A stretch of 64,000 bases of DNA from positions 1-64,000 of the forward strand of contig CALAHF010000166.1 of NCBI GenBank assembly GCA_937891465.1, read 5' to 3'. Made by a program: the position numbers and the translations under genes. The notes under the pieces are model-generated. The model had not been told where the DNA came from and searched no databases. It saw only the letters and a list, made by a program, of their open reading frames with translations. The DNA comes from an uncultured Verrucomicrobiales bacterium (GTDB lineage Bacteria; Verrucomicrobiota; Verrucomicrobiia; Verrucomicrobiales; DEV007). Of the stretch, positions 6,928 through 15,581 are shown in pieces; positions within the stretch are counted from its first letter, which is position 1; each line of letters opens with the position of its first letter.

Positions 6928-8214
6928 TTAAGCCTGCAGTTCCTTCACGATTCCCGAGCTATCTCCATGCCGCTCGGCTTCGATACCCATTCCCTGAAGC
7001 ATCGTCAGCCACACGTTGCAGAGCGGCGTGTCCTCTGGCAGGACGAGATGCTGTCCCAATTTCAGATTCGCTCCTCGACCTGCAATGACGGTGGGGCAGT
7101 TGGTCAGGTAGTGAATCGAGCTGATGTTCGATCCGAAAGTCACGGTGGTGTGATCAAAGAGGCTCGATCCGCCGGCTTCTTTCGTGGCCTTGAGCTTGTC
7201 GATGAGGCCGGCGAGCAGTTCGCTGTGGACCTTGTCGCGCTTCTTGGAAGCCTCCATGCGCTCGCCCGGGGAGTAATGGCTCACATTGTGAGCGCTGGGT
7301 TTGAGATCGAGACTCTGCAGGAGGGTGCTGGCGGGCAAACGATAGGTCAGCGCGCGGGTGCTGTCGGTCTGCAACGCGGCGACAATGAGCTGATACATGA
7401 TTTCAATCTCAGCCTTCCCCTTCAAGCCCGGAGCAGGCTCATCGAGTGGAGCCTTTATCTTGGGCACATCGAGCCAGTCTTCGTCTTTGTTGAGGCGGGT
7501 CTCGATGTCGCGAATACCTTGAAAATATTCGTCCAGCTTGTCGGTGTCTGTCGTGGAGAGCCCACGCTGGACGCGCTTTGCTTCGGATAGCACGGCGTCG
7601 AGGACACTGCGGTTCTCGGCGATGGCCGCCTGACGCTGTTCCAAAGGCAGGTCGTCAGCGGAAAACAGTTTGTGGAACACCTGCACCGGGTCGCTCTGTC
7701 CGGCGACCGGCTTGCCGCGCTGATCCCAGGCGAGGGAAAGTCCGGGACCGTGCCCCTGAAGTTCGGAGCTGTTGAGCTGGATCGAAGAAAAGCGAGTCTC
7801 TTGTCCCAGTTGCTGAGCGACGACCTGATCGACGGAAATACTGTTGGCCATGTTCTGCCCGGCCACGGAGTAACGATTCGCGCCGGTGAGCCAGAAGGTG
7901 CTGCCCCAGTGCGCCTCGTTGGTGAATTGGTTGGAACAGCCCTGCACCACCGTGATGTCCGATTTGTGACGCACGAGCGGAGAGAGCCCTTCGGAAAGTT
8001 CGTAGTCGGTGCCGGTCTTCGCCACATCTGGAAACCATGTCTCTTTCGTCATCCCGAAGCCTGTGCCGAGGAAAACGGATCGTTTCGGTGGCGTGCCGGG
8101 TGTCGTGGAAGCGGCCGAAGCAAAGCGTCGAAAACCGATGGACTCCAGCGCGGGCAGAGCGATGAGCGCTCCGGTTCCGCGAAGGAAGTGGCGGCGATTG
8201 AAAGAGGTTTTCAT
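6928..8214 (-). CDS. DUF1552 family protein with Tat-like signal
   Basis: A 428-residue protein beginning with a twin-arginine-like leader (RRHFLRG, then a hydrophobic stretch ending near residue 30). DUF1552 features are visible: FLGTGFGMTKETWFP near the start, QGCSNQF, GANRYSVAGQNMANSISVDQ, SLDLKPSAHNVSHYSPGE, and a C-terminal LCNVWLTMLQGMGIEAERHGDSSG. In Planctomycetota and Verrucomicrobiota this family is almost always encoded next to a DUF1592 cytochrome, as here (229 bp apart). The two are thought to act together at the cell envelope; the chemistry is not established. A folded-state export route through Tat is inferred from the leader. Confidence 0.88.
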   Translation of the reverse strand: MKTSFNRRHFLRGTGALIALPALESIGFRRFASAASTTPGTPPKRSVFLGTGFGMTKETWFPDVAKTGTDYELSEGLSPLVRHKSDITVVQGCSNQFTNEAHWGSTFWLTGANRYSVAGQNMANSISVDQVVAQQLGQETRFSSIQLNSSELQGHGPGLSLAWDQRGKPVAGQSDPVQVFHKLFSADDLPLEQRQAAIAENRSVLDAVLSEAKRVQRGLSTTDTDKLDEYFQGIRDIETRLNKDEDWLDVPKIKAPLDEPAPGLKGKAEIEIMYQLIVAALQTDSTRALTYRLPASTLLQSLDLKPSAHNVSHYSPGERMEASKKRDKVHSELLAGLIDKLKATKEAGGSSLFDHTTVTFGSNISSIHYLTNCPTVIAGRGANLKLGQHLVLPEDTPLCNVWLTMLQGMGIEAERHGDSSGIVKELQA

Positions 8215-8238: not shown

Positions 8239-8946
8239 TCACTTCTCCGGTTCCGATTTCGCTGCCCCCTCGCACTCCCAAAGCCTGACAGAGTCAAACA
8301 TGATACGACAATCCGGGCCTCCTTTGAAGGTGAATCGGGGTCCGAGTTTATCCTTCTCATTGATGATGCTGACCGCCTCGTGTTCGTATGTCTTGCTGTA
8401 GCCGTTGACGGAGATTCGGATGGTGCCCTTTCTGTATTCGATCACCAAATCGATCCACTCATTGAGCGCCATTTCTGAATCCGGCTCGGAAAACAAAGGG
8501 CCGTCGTCAGGCAACTTAATGCGATGCCCACCGCCTTCGAGAAAACCGAGAACAATCATGTGATGGCCGATCTGAAAACTGGGGCGACCGGGAGTCAGTT
8601 CTTTTTTCTCGAATTGGTAGCGAAGGTGACAAACGAATTGGCCCGGGATTTTGTTCAGATGTCCCACCGGCTCGAGGCCGAGATGATGATCGCGCTTGAG
8701 AGCCTTCATCGCTACTTCGCGGTCCGTAAATTGGGGTGAAATGATCAATTTTCCCTCTTCGATTTTCGTGCCTTTGGCACCCCATCTCTCGCGGTTGATT
8801 TCCCCATCAAAGTCATCGGAATAGACCAGGGTTCCGGAAGAGAACAGTTCGGATTCAAAAGCCGGCTCCTCGGCTCTCAGACTAGCTGAAAACGCGATAA
8901 GAATAATAAGAGCCAAGGCCCATGTTTTAGAGGTGTTTTTCTTCAT
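8239..8946 (-). CDS. Secreted concanavalin-like (DUF1080-related) protein
   Basis: A 235-residue protein with a signal peptide (MKKNTSKTW, hydrophobic core, cleavage near SLRA). The mature part has the pattern of a LamG/DUF1080-like beta sandwich: LVYSDDFDGEINRERWGAKG near the start, EGKLIISPQF, a central FQIGHHMIVLGFLEGGGHRI, then NEWIDLVIEYRKGTIRISVNG and a C-terminal FDSVRLWEC strand. Similar proteins bind or cleave glycans outside the cell. It is the first gene of the minus-strand cluster and has a 50-nt conserved element at 9002-9051 upstream, shared with the second ECF sigma gene, suggesting control by an ECF factor. Confidence 0.7.
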   Translation of the reverse strand: MKKNTSKTWALALIILIAFSASLRAEEPAFESELFSSGTLVYSDDFDGEINRERWGAKGTKIEEGKLIISPQFTDREVAMKALKRDHHLGLEPVGHLNKIPGQFVCHLRYQFEKKELTPGRPSFQIGHHMIVLGFLEGGGHRIKLPDDGPLFSEPDSEMALNEWIDLVIEYRKGTIRISVNGYSKTYEHEAVSIINEKDKLGPRFTFKGGPDCRIMFDSVRLWECEGAAKSEPEK

Positions 8947-9480: not shown

Positions 9481-10938
9481 ATGGCACGGGAAAGACCTAA
9501 CATCATTTTTATCATCACCGATCAGCAGCGATTCGACACGATCAATGCGCTCGGATTCCCCTATGCGGACACGCCCCATTTGGATCGGTTGGTGAATGGC
9601 GGTGTCACGTTCACCAATTGCCATGTCACCGCACCCAGCTGCGCTCCATCGCGAGCGAGCCTTTTTACTGGGCAGTATCCACACACCAACGGGATTCTAA
9701 AAAACGCAGATCGCTGGACAAGGAGCTGGGTGAACGATCTCGCGGAGTCGGGTTATCACTGTGTGAATGCAGGAAAAATGCACACTTTTCCGTTTACGAC
9801 GCCGTGCGGATTTAATGAGCGCTACGTGGTGGAAAATAAGGACCGCTATCTCGAAGGGCGTTACTTTTTTGATGAATGGGACAAGGCGCTGGCGGCTCGC
9901 GGATTGGTGAAACAACAGCGCGAAACCTATCGGGAAAGAGATGATTACGCGGACCGACTCGGGGCTTTCACGTGGGATTTGCCGCCGGAAACGCATTCGG
10001 ATAACTTTGTGGGGAATCTTTCGAAATGGTGGCTGAAAACGCATCCGAAAGAGGATCCGCTGTTTCTACAAATCGGATTTCCGGGGCCTCATCCGCCGTA
10101 TGATCCCACACCGGAAGCGCTCGCGGATTACGCCGATCGGGAGATCCCACTTCAGCCGGTGACAACGGATGATTTGGAAAACCAGCCGGAAGCCTACAAA
10201 GCGATGCGGCAACACAACAACGAGGTCGACCATGACTCCGTGATTTTGGAGCTTGATCCAACCGAGGAGCAACGGCTCGATCAGCGGCGGCACTACATGG
10301 CAAACGTGACGATGATTGATACAAAAGTCGGCGAGATCATGGAATCGCTCGAGGAACAGGGCTACCTGGAAAACTCAGTGATCATCTTTACGAGCGATCA
10401 CGGCGATTGCCTGACAGATCACGGGCATTCCCAGAAGTGGACGTTTTACGAACAAGTCACAAAGATGCCGACGATCGTTTGGTCTTCAAACGGACGGTTT
10501 GGTGAAGGTGGACGTCGCATTGATGAGCTGACGTCGCTATTTGATTTGGGGCCGACGATTCTGGAGTTGGCGGATTGTGAAGTGCCGGAGAATTTCATGG
10601 CGGAATCCTTGAACCCCGCGTTGGAAGGTGACTCTGAGTGGTCGGGCCGTGACTATGTTTTTGCCGAAGGCTGCCGCGACGGAAATTTTGTTTCAGCGGA
10701 TTACCAGACGATGATCCGAAGCGACGAATGGAAGCTGGTTCAAATCACAGGGAGTGATCCGATCGATGGCGGAACGGAAGGGCAGCTTTTTGATTTGGTG
10801 AACGATCCGGGCGAGCAGGTCAATTTGTGGAATTCAGCGGATCATGCAGAAAAGAAAAATGAACTGGTGTGTGAGCTTTTTGAATGGCGAGTCAAGACTG
10901 GTCATCTTGCGGCGAGTCATTATGCTGATGCCCGATAA
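9481..10938 (+). CDS. Cytoplasmic sulfatase (type I, CAPSR)
   Basis: A 485-residue alkaline-phosphatase-superfamily sulfatase. The N-terminal RPNIIFIITDQQRFDT supplies metal-binding aspartates. The C54-A-P-S-R motif is the CxPSR signature in which the cysteine becomes formylglycine through a separate activating enzyme. Further metal ligands lie in TSDHGDCLTDHGHSQK. No signal peptide is visible, so it probably works in the cytoplasm on an imported sulfate ester, unlike the exported sulfatase at 55.6-57.0 kb. A GGAG ribosome site lies just before the ATG. The next gene, a TctA-type permease, begins 5 nt after the stop, so transporter and sulfatase form one operon; the transporter may import the sulfated acid or a product, which is inference. 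Confidence 0.9.
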   Translation: MARERPNIIFIITDQQRFDTINALGFPYADTPHLDRLVNGGVTFTNCHVTAPSCAPSRASLFTGQYPHTNGILKNADRWTRSWVNDLAESGYHCVNAGKMHTFPFTTPCGFNERYVVENKDRYLEGRYFFDEWDKALAARGLVKQQRETYRERDDYADRLGAFTWDLPPETHSDNFVGNLSKWWLKTHPKEDPLFLQIGFPGPHPPYDPTPEALADYADREIPLQPVTTDDLENQPEAYKAMRQHNNEVDHDSVILELDPTEEQRLDQRRHYMANVTMIDTKVGEIMESLEEQGYLENSVIIFTSDHGDCLTDHGHSQKWTFYEQVTKMPTIVWSSNGRFGEGGRRIDELTSLFDLGPTILELADCEVPENFMAESLNPALEGDSEWSGRDYVFAEGCRDGNFVSADYQTMIRSDEWKLVQITGSDPIDGGTEGQLFDLVNDPGEQVNLWNSADHAEKKNELVCELFEWRVKTGHLAASHYADAR

Positions 10939-10943
10939 TCATC

Positions 10944-12473
10944 ATGTTTGAATTTGTTCCACTTTTAGCTGAAGCCAGCCCGCTCGCCGACGCACTTGCC
11001 AGTATTCTAAGTCCGTGGGGCTTATTGCTGATTGTTTTCGGAACTGCGCTCGGCGTTTTCGTCGGGGCGGTGCCTGGCCTCACGGGAACAATGTTGATCG
11101 CGCTGATGCTGCCGCTGACTTATGGCCACGACAAGCTGCTCTCGATGGCGTTTCTCATCGCGGTTTATGTCGGGGCGGTGAGCGGTGGGATGATCACGGC
11201 GACGCTGTTGCGAATGCCGGGAACGCCTGCATCAATCGTGACGACGCTCGACGGCTACCCGATGGCCCGCGACGGATTGCCGGGCAAAGCCCTCGGGCTG
11301 GGGGTCATGGCCTCAACGATGGGCGGCATGATTTCATGGGGATTTCTCGTTTTGCTGACAGAACCGATCGCGCGGCTGTCCTCGAAATTTGGCTACTTCG
11401 AGTATTTTTCGCTCGTCCTCATGGCCCTCGTTTTGATCGCTACGATCGGCGGAAAATCGCTCTCCCGTTCGCTGTTCTCGGGCTTTTTCGGGATTCTTCT
11501 CTCGATGCCGGGGATCGTCGCTGCAACCGGCGCGCCGCGAATGACGTTTGGCATCACAGAAATGAACGCCGGATTCGGACACATGCCAGTGTTGATCGGG
11601 TTGTTCGCGGTAAATCAAATCCTGCGGGAAATCATCAATATCGAGCAAAAGAAAAAACCGATCGATATTGGTAAAAATAAAGTGCTGGTCGGACTGGTCG
11701 ACATCAAGAATCACGCCGTCAATATGGTCCGCTCGTCGGTGATCGGAACGTGGATTGGGATTCTACCGGGCATCGGCGCAAATATCGGATCGGTCACCGC
11801 GTATTCGGTGGCGAAGAGCGTTTCAAAAGAGCCGGAGAAATTCGGGACCGGTCATGAGCCGGGAGTCGTCGCGGCGGAATCAGCCAACAATGCGACCATC
11901 GGCGGGGCCTTGATCCCTCTCCTTGCTATGGGCTTACCTGGCAGTGTCATGGAAGTGGTATTGCTCGGCGCGCTCATCGTTCACGGAATACAGCCGGGGC
12001 CGCGCCTGATGGAGCAGAGCCCAACCATGGTCTACACAATTATGGGAGCGATGTTCATCGCCAACATTTTCATGGCGTTGATCATGTTTGGCTCAATGAA
12101 GAAAATTGCAAAGCTCGTGCGCATTCCGCGCCCGTATTTGCTACCGATGATCCTTTGTTTCGCGGTCATAGGGTCCTACGCGCTGTCGAATCGAGTCTTC
12201 GATATTTACGTGATGCTCGGATTTGGATTGCTCGGGTTTTGCATGGAATCGTTCAGGATTCCCCTCGCCCCATTTGTGATTGGTTTCGTGCTTGGACCAA
12301 TCGCCGAGAAAAATCTCAGCCTTGGTCTTCAGGCCTCGAACGGAAGTTACTCCCCGATTTTCACCCAACCCATTTCCCTGACCTTCGTCATCATTTCTGT
12401 GCTGATGCTTTTCATGCCTGCGATTAGAAAACTTCTTTCATTACCCAAACCACCCGGGGTCAAAGCGTCATGA
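10944..12473 (+). CDS. tctA: Tripartite tricarboxylate transporter large permease TctA
   Basis: A 509-residue polytopic membrane protein, the normal length for TctA, with about 12 hydrophobic segments. The typical glycine-rich motifs are present: VGAVPGLTGTMLIALMLPLT near residue 40-60, GMITATLLRMPGTPASIVTT, and the second repeat GILPGIGANIGSVTAY with GHEPGVVAAESANNAT. TctA forms the transport path of TTT systems, which take up citrate-like carboxylates with a periplasmic binding protein (TctC) and a small membrane subunit (TctB). The start is 5 nt after the sulfatase gene, and the stop overlaps the next start (ATGA), so the three genes are an operon. The substrate cannot be read from sequence. 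Confidence 0.92.
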   Translation: MFEFVPLLAEASPLADALASILSPWGLLLIVFGTALGVFVGAVPGLTGTMLIALMLPLTYGHDKLLSMAFLIAVYVGAVSGGMITATLLRMPGTPASIVTTLDGYPMARDGLPGKALGLGVMASTMGGMISWGFLVLLTEPIARLSSKFGYFEYFSLVLMALVLIATIGGKSLSRSLFSGFFGILLSMPGIVAATGAPRMTFGITEMNAGFGHMPVLIGLFAVNQILREIINIEQKKKPIDIGKNKVLVGLVDIKNHAVNMVRSSVIGTWIGILPGIGANIGSVTAYSVAKSVSKEPEKFGTGHEPGVVAAESANNATIGGALIPLLAMGLPGSVMEVVLLGALIVHGIQPGPRLMEQSPTMVYTIMGAMFIANIFMALIMFGSMKKIAKLVRIPRPYLLPMILCFAVIGSYALSNRVFDIYVMLGFGLLGFCMESFRIPLAPFVIGFVLGPIAEKNLSLGLQASNGSYSPIFTQPISLTFVIISVLMLFMPAIRKLLSLPKPPGVKAS

Positions 12474-13870
12474 GTGATTCTTCCGATTCTCAGAAAAAAA
12501 CAGGCCTACTGCGCGCCTGGCACATCGTGGCGTGGCTTCTTGTTGTCGTCCTGGTCGGTTGGTGGATCGCGAAAGGTTTCAGTGCGCAAAAGACGACCTA
12601 CCCGAATAAGCCCATCGAAGTCGTTGTACCGTATCCTGCGGGCGGTGGCTCAGACACGTTTGTCCGGCGAGTCATTCAGCAAGGGATCGAAGAAGGACAG
12701 CTGCTCGATGTTCCGCTGGCGGTGTTCAACGTCCCCGGCGGTGGCGGCACGATTGGCAGCCGCGACGTGATGAACAGCCGTCCCGACGGCTACAAGGTAA
12801 TCTGTCATCACACCTCGATGATCAGCTCTAAATTAGCGGGTACCGTAGATTTTGGCCCGGATGATTTTGCAAAGTTTGCCCAGACGGGAAAGAATACCAT
12901 GATCGTGATGGTCCGCGAAGACTGTCCCTATCCGGATCTCAAAGCTCTGTTGAACGCGGCGGCCGAGAATCCGAAATCTCTCAAGTTCGGCGCGAACATC
13001 GGTTCCGCGGCCTACTTCATCACCCTCCAGCTCGAAAAAGCGGTTCCAGGAGCTAAATTCAGCATTGTCTCGGCCGATGGTGGAGCGGATCGTTACAACC
13101 GCCTCATCGGAGGGCACCTCGACGCCGGAATTTTCTCTCTCTCGGAATATCTTGATTTCCGGGACGGGGATGACACCCCAGCCGATCGAAATGTGAAAGC
13201 GCTGTCGGTACTGTCTGAAGAGCGACATCCCGCAATTCCCGATGCCGGCACTGCAATCGAGCAGGGCTTTCCCGTGACCTTCAGCAATGGTTACTACTGG
13301 TGGGCTGCCAAAGACACGCCCCCCGAAATTCAGGAGTATCTCGCCGATGTATTGGAAAGAACGATGCAGACGGAAATCGCCCAGAGCGAGATGAAGCGGT
13401 TGCGTATTGATCCAACCTTTCTGCGTGGCAAAGAGGTCGAAGCCGACATTCAGGCCACCGTCGACAGCTTCAAATCCGTCATCGCTGAGGAGAATCGGGT
13501 CGTCCCTGATTTCGCGAAGTACATGCAGATCCTCGTGCTGATCTTGTTCGTGATCGTCATCATCGTTTCCATTCGCGAACGCGGCCAGCCCGACGAAGAC
13601 GCGATTGATCTCGACTCGGACAGCCCCGCCTTCACCAAACGTAAAGGACGCGCCACCGCCTGTTTTGTCGCCTTGTTAAGCTACGTGTTGCTTCTCGTGT
13701 TCACACCCATTCCGTTCGCGATTGCCTCGAGTCTCATGGTTTTCATTACCGGAGGTTTGATGTCTGCCTGGGACAAAAAATACCGCCTCATCCTTTTCCA
13801 GCTGGCGTTGCTCACCGGCTTCGGCGCGGAATTTGTCTTTACCAAAGTGTTCACGATTCCGCTTCCGTGA
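12470..13870 (+). CDS. Fused TctC-TctB protein: membrane-anchored solute receptor plus small permease
   Basis: One 466-residue frame contains what are normally two proteins. Residues about 19-37 form a membrane helix rather than a cleaved signal. Residues about 44-340 are a TctC/Bug-type binding domain: NKPIEVVVPYPAGGGSDT at the start, NVPGGGGTIGSRDV, PDGYKVICHH, and DAGIFSLSEYL. A second helix follows at about 351-368. The C-terminal part (about 385-466) has the hydrophobic segments and the terminal F-x-IPLP ending of TctB. The receptor is thus tethered at both ends, facing the periplasm. The start overlaps the tctA stop by 4 nt, which argues for a genuine gene rather than an assembly join. 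The order tctA then tctC-B is also unlike the common tctC-B-A. Confidence 0.85.
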   Translation: MSDSSDSQKKTGLLRAWHIVAWLLVVVLVGWWIAKGFSAQKTTYPNKPIEVVVPYPAGGGSDTFVRRVIQQGIEEGQLLDVPLAVFNVPGGGGTIGSRDVMNSRPDGYKVICHHTSMISSKLAGTVDFGPDDFAKFAQTGKNTMIVMVREDCPYPDLKALLNAAAENPKSLKFGANIGSAAYFITLQLEKAVPGAKFSIVSADGGADRYNRLIGGHLDAGIFSLSEYLDFRDGDDTPADRNVKALSVLSEERHPAIPDAGTAIEQGFPVTFSNGYYWWAAKDTPPEIQEYLADVLERTMQTEIAQSEMKRLRIDPTFLRGKEVEADIQATVDSFKSVIAEENRVVPDFAKYMQILVLILFVIVIIVSIRERGQPDEDAIDLDSDSPAFTKRKGRATACFVALLSYVLLLVFTPIPFAIASSLMVFITGGLMSAWDKKYRLILFQLALLTGFGAEFVFTKVFTIPLP

Positions 13871-14079: not shown

Positions 14080-15054
14080 TCACTTCACAAATCGCACCGG
14101 AAGATTGGGCTGTTTAATCAAGGTGAGATGGACATCATCCACGAAGTAGCCGCCCAGTTCGATGGGGGTTTTGGACCCCGTCATGGTATTCACGTTCACA
14201 GAAATGAGGGCGATGGTGGCTTCCGGGGCCAGGATGCAGGATGTGGAAAGGGTGCCCGGCTCGTCTCCGGGCTTGAGCTTGATCGCCTTGTTCCCAACCG
14301 CTACCGCATCGCTGATCACGAGCGGCCATGCTTTGCCGATGGACTCGGGCTCAGCCCGGTAGAGAGAAATCGTGCACGTCCCTTTCAGTTTGGGCACTTC
14401 TGTATCATTGGGAGCCGCTTCGCGATTGAACCTGGCAGAAAACTCAAGCGTGAACTGAGCTTCTGAGTTCTCTGTGTCCCACTGTTGCTGGATCGACGAC
14501 AGGTCAATGAGCTGAAACACATTGCACGCGGAGGCTCCGCCGTTGGGCTTTCCGGTGACATTGGCCGTCTCAAGAAACCGCAATTTATGGTTTCCGTCTG
14601 CTTCCTCGATCACCTCGGCAGGATCTCCGCTCCAACCGCCGAAGGTGGATGGGAAACCACTATCGATGGGACCCGCTGAATCCTCAAAGGCTCCATTCGC
14701 GACAGGAATCAATGCAGCTTGCGACTTTGGTGAACCCACGGCCCATGCCACTCCAACACCTAACACACCCAACAAAGCACCGGCAACGAGAGCGGCAGCG
14801 AGCTGTCTGGACCAGGCAAAGGGGCGAAGGTTGAGGCTTTGAGATGGCTCCGGGGCGGGGAACGGAACCGTTTCCATATCCAAAGCCAGCGTTTCATCGC
14901 CGAGCGCGCCATGAATTTGCGCCGCCGTGAGATACTCCGATCGAACCGTTGCATCGCTTACTATCTTATCAGACAAGACTGCTGCTTCCTCCCCGGAAGT
15001 CTGTCCATCGAGATGCTTTTGTATGAGCGCTTGCCAATCGTTTGAGTCAGTCAT
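14080..15054 (-). CDS. Single-pass membrane regulator coupled to ECF sigma factor
   Basis: A 324-residue protein. Residues 1-80 are cytoplasmic and include a DWQALIQKHLDGQTSGEEAA start and the SEYLTAAQIHGALGD helix, a layout found in anti-sigma-like partners of verrucomicrobial ECF factors. A membrane helix covers about 84-106. The rest is outside and resembles a galactose-binding-like beta sandwich (IPVANGAFED, then FGGWSGDPAEVIE, CNVFQLIDLSS, and a C-terminal GYFVDDVHLTLI). No FecR core is evident, unlike the regulator at 1-1049. Its ATG overlaps the stop of the sigma gene by 4 nt (ATGA). The inferred role is control of the sigma factor in response to an extracellular ligand. Confidence 0.7.
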   Translation of the reverse strand: MTDSNDWQALIQKHLDGQTSGEEAAVLSDKIVSDATVRSEYLTAAQIHGALGDETLALDMETVPFPAPEPSQSLNLRPFAWSRQLAAALVAGALLGVLGVGVAWAVGSPKSQAALIPVANGAFEDSAGPIDSGFPSTFGGWSGDPAEVIEEADGNHKLRFLETANVTGKPNGGASACNVFQLIDLSSIQQQWDTENSEAQFTLEFSARFNREAAPNDTEVPKLKGTCTISLYRAEPESIGKAWPLVISDAVAVGNKAIKLKPGDEPGTLSTSCILAPEATIALISVNVNTMTGSKTPIELGGYFVDDVHLTLIKQPNLPVRFVK

Positions 15055-15581
15055 GCCGGTTCCTTTGCTAGTTGTCGTTCAATGCACGCCTGCAGATCGC
15101 GGCGGGCGCGTTGGATCGTTTTGTAAATCGCCTCGACCGTGCGACCTTCGCGTTGTGAGAGAATTTCGGGACTGTGGCCCTCGTGGTAGTAGCCCTTCAC
15201 CAGTCGGCGGGGCTTTTCGTTGAGCTTGCCGAGGCAGGTGGCGAGATGCGTTTCGAGGGCAATGTCGAAATCAGATGAACGCTCCATCCCCTGCTCGAGG
15301 GCTTCCCTGGCTTGTTCCGTGAGCTGAGCCCTGCGGGATTCCTTCGCCAAAAAGCGCCGCGTTTCAATCCGCGAAAATCCCATCGCCCAATTGATGAACG
15401 GACGGTCAGGATCATAGCTTTCAAACTGTCGCCACAGTGCCACAGCCGTTTCCTGCAGGATTTCCCTAGCGTCCGCCCGATGCGGAACCATGACGAGAAT
15501 CGACCGCAGCATCACTGGTTCGCTCTCGAGAAGGAGGCGGGTAAAGCGTTCATGATCGCTGTTGGAATCCGTGGTTGGCAT
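15051..15581 (-). CDS. ECF RNA polymerase sigma factor, second copy
   Basis: A 176-residue sigma factor of the same class as the one at 1043-1576. Region 2 (about 15-80) contains HRADAREILQETAVALWRQF and an aromatic FINWAMGFSRIETRRFL segment. Region 4 (about 110-165) contains the helix-turn-helix SPEILSQREGRTVEAIYKTI. It is coupled by a 4-nt overlap to the membrane regulator. The 50-nt element 16 nt upstream of its start is shared with a secreted-protein gene, which suggests that the sigma factor directs its own transcription and that of the distant gene; this is inference from sequence identity alone. Confidence 0.9.
   Translation of the reverse strand: MPTTDSNSDHERFTRLLLESEPVMLRSILVMVPHRADAREILQETAVALWRQFESYDPDRPFINWAMGFSRIETRRFLAKESRRAQLTEQAREALEQGMERSSDFDIALETHLATCLGKLNEKPRRLVKGYYHEGHSPEILSQREGRTVEAIYKTIQRARRDLQACIERQLAKEPA

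Follow-up and report, generated by a model that had tools for sequence, protein, structure and literature searches.

The window, a 64,000-nt stretch from the draft genome of an uncultured Verrucomicrobiales bacterium, carries a three-gene operon on its forward strand. The first gene (9481-10938, +) encodes an S1-type sulfatase of 485 aa (PF00884, E 2.8e-47; SGSH_C, E 6.5e-13) that carries the formylglycine motif CAPSRASLFTG and lacks a signal peptide before RPNIIFIITDQQRFD. Since it is leaderless, the enzyme is probably cytoplasmic, as had been proposed from the sequence alone. It ends 6 nt before tctA (10944-12473, +), which encodes the TTT large membrane subunit of 509 aa (PF01970, matched over its full length, E 3.4e-139). 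The third gene (12470-13870, +) is a single uninterrupted frame of 466 aa, running from an ATG at 12470 to a stop at 13868-13870, in which a TctC receptor and a TctB membrane subunit are joined. Its overlap with tctA, already reported in the sequence-only reading, is exactly 4 nt (ATGA, 12470-12473). Divergent from the operon lie genes for a Tat-signal DUF1552 protein (6928-8214, −) and a weak LamG-like secreted protein (8239-8946, −). Just downstream of the fusion, two genes named by eye encode a sigma-factor-like protein (15051-15581, −) and then a FecR/anti-sigma-like protein (14080-15054, −).

Both domains of the fusion scored above the curated Pfam cut-offs: TctC at residues 66-341 (PF03401; 74.3 bits, cut-off 27, E 1.5e-20) and TctB at residues 350-466 (PF07331; 35.8 bits, cut-off 29.1, E 1.1e-8). 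This search, suggested by the sequence-only reading, thus placed the TctB profile in the C-terminal part of the protein and bore out the claim of TctC and TctB in one frame. The TctB match spans profile positions 34-137 of 137, leaving positions 1-33, which correspond to helix 1, unaccounted for. An AlphaFold model of the fusion without TctA (mean pLDDT 87, pTM 0.70, 23 aligned relatives as input) displayed an N-terminal helix at residues 7-37, the TctC fold, a short weak or disordered linker, and four helices at residues 348-372, 386-411, 416-431, and 436-460. The TctC-type periplasmic solute-binding domain was assigned to residues 49-335 (12614-13474, +), with PF03401, Foldseek, and the motif columns as evidence; its GGxxD and DG columns are invariant in the 23 relatives. 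The soluble part resembles TctC/Bug structures (4x9t, BugD, Bug27, MatC, and TphC), and the structure entries matched by Foldseek for this domain include 4x9t, 2f5x, 2qpq, and 6hke. The linker to the first TctB helix (residues 336-347; 13475-13510, +) has pLDDT <50 at residues 341-345 and is evolving fast, residues 336-350 being 47% identical to the closest orthologue compared with 84% for TctC. The TctB part without helix 1 occupies 13511-13867 (+).

The orthologue belongs to the same three-gene operon in another genome (G414), where the sulfatase, TctA, and fusion are 86%, 86%, and 72% identical to those of the window, respectively. Relatives thus carry the fusion instead of separate genes, and one of them has the operon fully conserved. 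Between the two fusions, nonsynonymous differences occur at a much lower rate than synonymous ones in TctC (pN/pS 0.108/0.754) and at a lower rate in TctB (0.306/0.625), indicating purifying selection on both parts. Genomes of Verrucomicrobiota and Lentisphaerota, including metagenome-assembled genomes of Opitutales/Opitutaceae, Opitutia, other Verrucomicrobiia, and Lentisphaerales/Lentisphaeraceae, yielded more than 45 fusion loci; every relative is represented by a draft or metagenome-assembled genome. The fusion alignment matched 30 of 75 genomes in the family of the window, mostly through full fusions, and 11 of 387 genomes in a phylum-wide draw, some of them only via separate TctC proteins. 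The window protein alone, as a query on genome contigs, gave 0 matches, and an alignment of 8 rows proved too diverse. The four best-covered plasmid matches inspected outside the phylum (H1, H4, H11, and H13) were separate genes or a lone receptor. The gene adjacent to the fusion is tctA at 44 full-length loci, the window included, either upstream, often with the 4-nt overlap seen here, or downstream.

The window genome itself yields two matches each for TctC and TctB, and each TctC is fused to a TctB. A contig end cuts the second fusion, which is carried by a different contig (C74) and has no tctA downstream. A second TctA of this genome (contig C125, 4733-6211 of locus L043) is accompanied by neither TctC nor TctB and adjoins a metallophosphoesterase-like gene. 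A candidate TctB-TctA fusion at another locus (L035, genome G214) was dropped, its frame being a long ORF through GC-rich repeats.

We compared the fusions with separate TctBs, that is, genes of 153-190 aa above the Pfam cut-off. Matches to the TctB profile start at positions 20-39 in fused frames versus 3-9 in separate TctBs. For one separate TctB of this lineage, a low-confidence model (pLDDT 55) shows five helices (8-29, 44-69, 82-101, 107-123, and 127-154), and by comparison with that model the four helices after TctC in the window protein match helices 2-5. In the alignment, the join immediately precedes a conserved proline that lies before TctB helix 2. The TctC family is periplasmic, so the segment that follows the receptor has to cross the membrane out-to-in. 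TctB helix 1 has the opposite direction, in-to-out, and would leave whatever follows it on the incorrect face of the membrane, which would explain its absence from the fusions. A second fusion type, of independent origin, was found at L142 (2672-4297; genome G483) and L152 (4925-6538; genome G412), whose proteins are 55% identical to each other. Their TctB matches begin at position 6 (6-137) and position 2, respectively, and therefore include helix 1. Hydropathy disclosed an added hydrophobic segment between TctC and TctB in both (residues 358-376 in L142, 352-370 in L152). These were the only fusions found to keep helix 1, and each has one extra helix before it. Judged from hydropathy, profile alignment, and AlphaFold, dropping one helix or adding one yields the same predicted topology, as the topology argument predicts. 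The two topology-saving routes provide a clean natural example of a parity constraint on membrane-protein fusions.

A more extreme reduction was observed at six loci, in which TctC is followed by one C-terminal helix in place of TctB helix 2 and then a stop: L118 (3526-4572), L119 (3896-4942), L120 (4386-5492), L121 (5565-6671), L122 (3960-5030), and L146 (6731-7828). The tctA gene starts in overlap directly downstream, and the TctA proteins of these loci form one clade (support 100/100). Pfam TctB was not recognised in the three short forms scanned. The best case is genome G453, which contains a short form and gave no TctB match above the cut-off. Genome G398 lacks TctB matches altogether, but a truncated piece of a second receptor on contig C171 makes this case less clean. 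We tentatively suggest, as a serious possibility, that the essential role of TctB lies in keeping the receptor at TctA and that, with the receptor covalently attached, TctB can be reduced to one anchoring helix, in which case the short forms could be two-polypeptide TTT importers without TctB.

Several other explanations of the joined frame were considered. An assembly or frameshift error could have united two genes, given that the window genome is a draft of 229 contigs, yet fusions occur in dozens of independent assemblies, the 72% identical orthologue sits within the same operon, and both parts are under purifying selection. The orthologues refute an artefact, and the TctC-TctB fusion is real, conserved, and recurrent. 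Another explanation concerns the N-terminal helix (12488-12580, +; hydropathy peak at residues 19-37), which could be helix 1 of TctB itself, with the receptor inserted in the first periplasmic loop. The topology fits, the helix of the window protein looks uncleaved, and once the TctC domain is deleted, the resulting chimeras align to almost the whole TctB profile. The accompanying change in score, however, was only −0.3 to +4.3 bits, and since control helices from separate TctCs gave similar changes (+0.3 and +2.6), the gain is not specific to this helix. The N-terminus was inspected by eye in other fusions. It resembles an uncleaved anchor both in the window protein and in its orthologue, where no AXA-type site follows the helix, like a cleavable signal peptide in L038, L039, L078, and L118, and like a lipoprotein segment in L131, L137, and L147. 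Since other fusions of this clade begin with segments resembling signal peptides or lipoprotein signals, retention of TctB helix 1 is not a general feature, and we consider an insertion into TctB quite improbable. The uncleaved helix proposed by the sequence-only reading is thus probably a signal anchor here and in the closest orthologue, yet the architecture does not always include it; as judged from these sequences, the constant element is the C-terminal tether.

The tether could also be incidental, an adjacent tctC and tctB in the same frame having been joined and the product kept neutrally, working as separate subunits would. A related system (L046) has separate tctC and tctB genes in the same frame, 3 nt apart, and joining would thus be easy; the fast-evolving linker is likewise consistent with neutrality. 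A simple stop loss, however, would leave TctB helix 1 in place and so produce an incorrect topology, and all the fused proteins examined show a compensating change. The tree of partner TctA proteins also argues against an incidental join, as the fusion arose more than once. In this tree, a single origin of all fusions was rejected (one-clade constraint, p-AU 7e-11): the L142/L152 pair, L137, and the main clade fall apart, and L137, on a very long branch, groups with the unfused L149 (100/99). Within the main clade, the unfused L046, L087, L089, and L090 adjoin the fused L038 (support 80/93; 95/90 in a second tree), and a tree holding the fused rows of this clade together was not rejected (p 0.33). 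On balance, an incidental tether appears rather unlikely. The fusion may also be cut after translation.

The reading we favor, and consider likely, is a TTT importer in which the receptor TctC is covalently joined to TctB, so that it consists of two polypeptides (TctA and TctC-TctB) rather than three, and in which the sulfatase probably cuts the imported compound. The fusion, its conservation, the absence of helix 1, the gene order, and the leaderless sulfatase were observed directly, and a tethered receptor follows almost directly from the sequence. We infer that the TctC domain lies in the periplasm, its C-terminus running directly into TctB helix 2, and that the fusion forms a complex with TctA. 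The receptor would then be kept beside the transporter at a fixed ratio of one per TctB part, and could deliver its ligand by swinging on the short linker instead of diffusing in, from which a kinetic effect of tethering would be expected. TctA, presumably as an ion-coupled permease, would move the ligand inward, and the sulfatase, having no export signal, would probably strip a sulfate group in the cytoplasm from a putatively acidic, sulfated substrate. The receptor and TctB as one chain, with TctB trimmed to one helix in some lineages, make the role of TctB directly testable, and the fusion family offers fixed-stoichiometry constructs for cryo-EM.

The gene neighborhood provides a lead to the substrate. 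Leaderless sulfatases of the subclass found in the window recur beside these transporters, being nearby in about 16 loci in all. The window genome (5.97 Mb) has at least 151 sulfatase matches, of which only three carry the TDQQRFD signature of the leaderless type, one of them in this operon. A same-strand sulfatase lies within 150 bp at 19 of the 44 full-length fusion loci and at one of five short ones, the rows for L125 and L131 being less sure owing to overlapping ORFs. This is well above chance if sulfatases make up ~3% of genes, assuming ~5000 genes, with the reservation that the relatives are not independent. The substrate inference is weak, as no sulfatase adjoins more than half of the fusion loci, and at some the sulfatases look secreted rather than leaderless. 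In the short-form loci L118 to L121, the gene after tctA is amidohydrolase-like; the L118 copy matches PF04909 and scores 96.8 bits against L-fucono-1,5-lactonase, far below the cut-off of 400. Together, these neighbors suggest, as a lead, that the imported compound could be acidic, in part sulfated, and perhaps sugar-derived. Elsewhere, three orphan TctC receptors (L083, L084, and L085) without TctA or TctB each lie beside secreted-looking sulfatases.

With regard to family membership, Pfam and Foldseek identified TctA, TctC, and TctB homologues in the operon. The canonical TTT form, in which the three polypeptides are separate and the receptor diffuses freely, is not required for homology and is absent here; with TctC and TctB sharing one frame, the operon is a TTT variant and not a canonical system. 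No TRAP family (DctP/TAXI or DctQ/DctM) was among the Pfam matches up to E 10, so the locus does not encode a TRAP P-Q fusion. The Pfam search likewise recovered no ABC permease family; the operon genes are those for the sulfatase, TctA, and TctC-TctB, with no ATP-binding cassette subunit. Among solved structures, no TctA relative turned up. In the open-access literature searched, we found no report of a TctC-TctB fusion; domain databases may contain such proteins without remark.

Compared with TctCBA systems, the window likewise encodes TctA, TctB, and TctC homologues together, with a TctC of the Bug fold, and differs in having TctC and TctB as one polypeptide, a TctB without helix 1, and a gene for a leaderless sulfatase ahead. 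A 2018 review of TTT transporters (TC 2.A.80) describes the function of TctB as unknown and reports a TctAB fusion in Paraburkholderia caribensis (PMC5812351). That protein is also a fusion inside the TTT family; it joins the two membrane subunits, whereas the window protein joins the receptor to the small membrane subunit. The latter arrangement is that of the TRAP Q-P fusions, described as rare in a 2021 review citing Kelly and Thomas 2001 (PMC8276074). DctQM fusions of TRAP transporters have an additional linker helix (PMC5812351), which the extra helix of L142 and L152 resembles. Unlike TRAP transporters, with which TTT systems share no sequence similarity (PMC5812351), the window protein has matches to TTT families alone. 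Fused receptors also occur in ABC importers (PMC8276074). The window protein shares with such importers a tethered receptor and an expected gain in local receptor concentration. Whereas OpuA and GlnPQ are ABC importers of this kind, the system described here has no ATPase, and its TctA is, by family, a secondary transporter.
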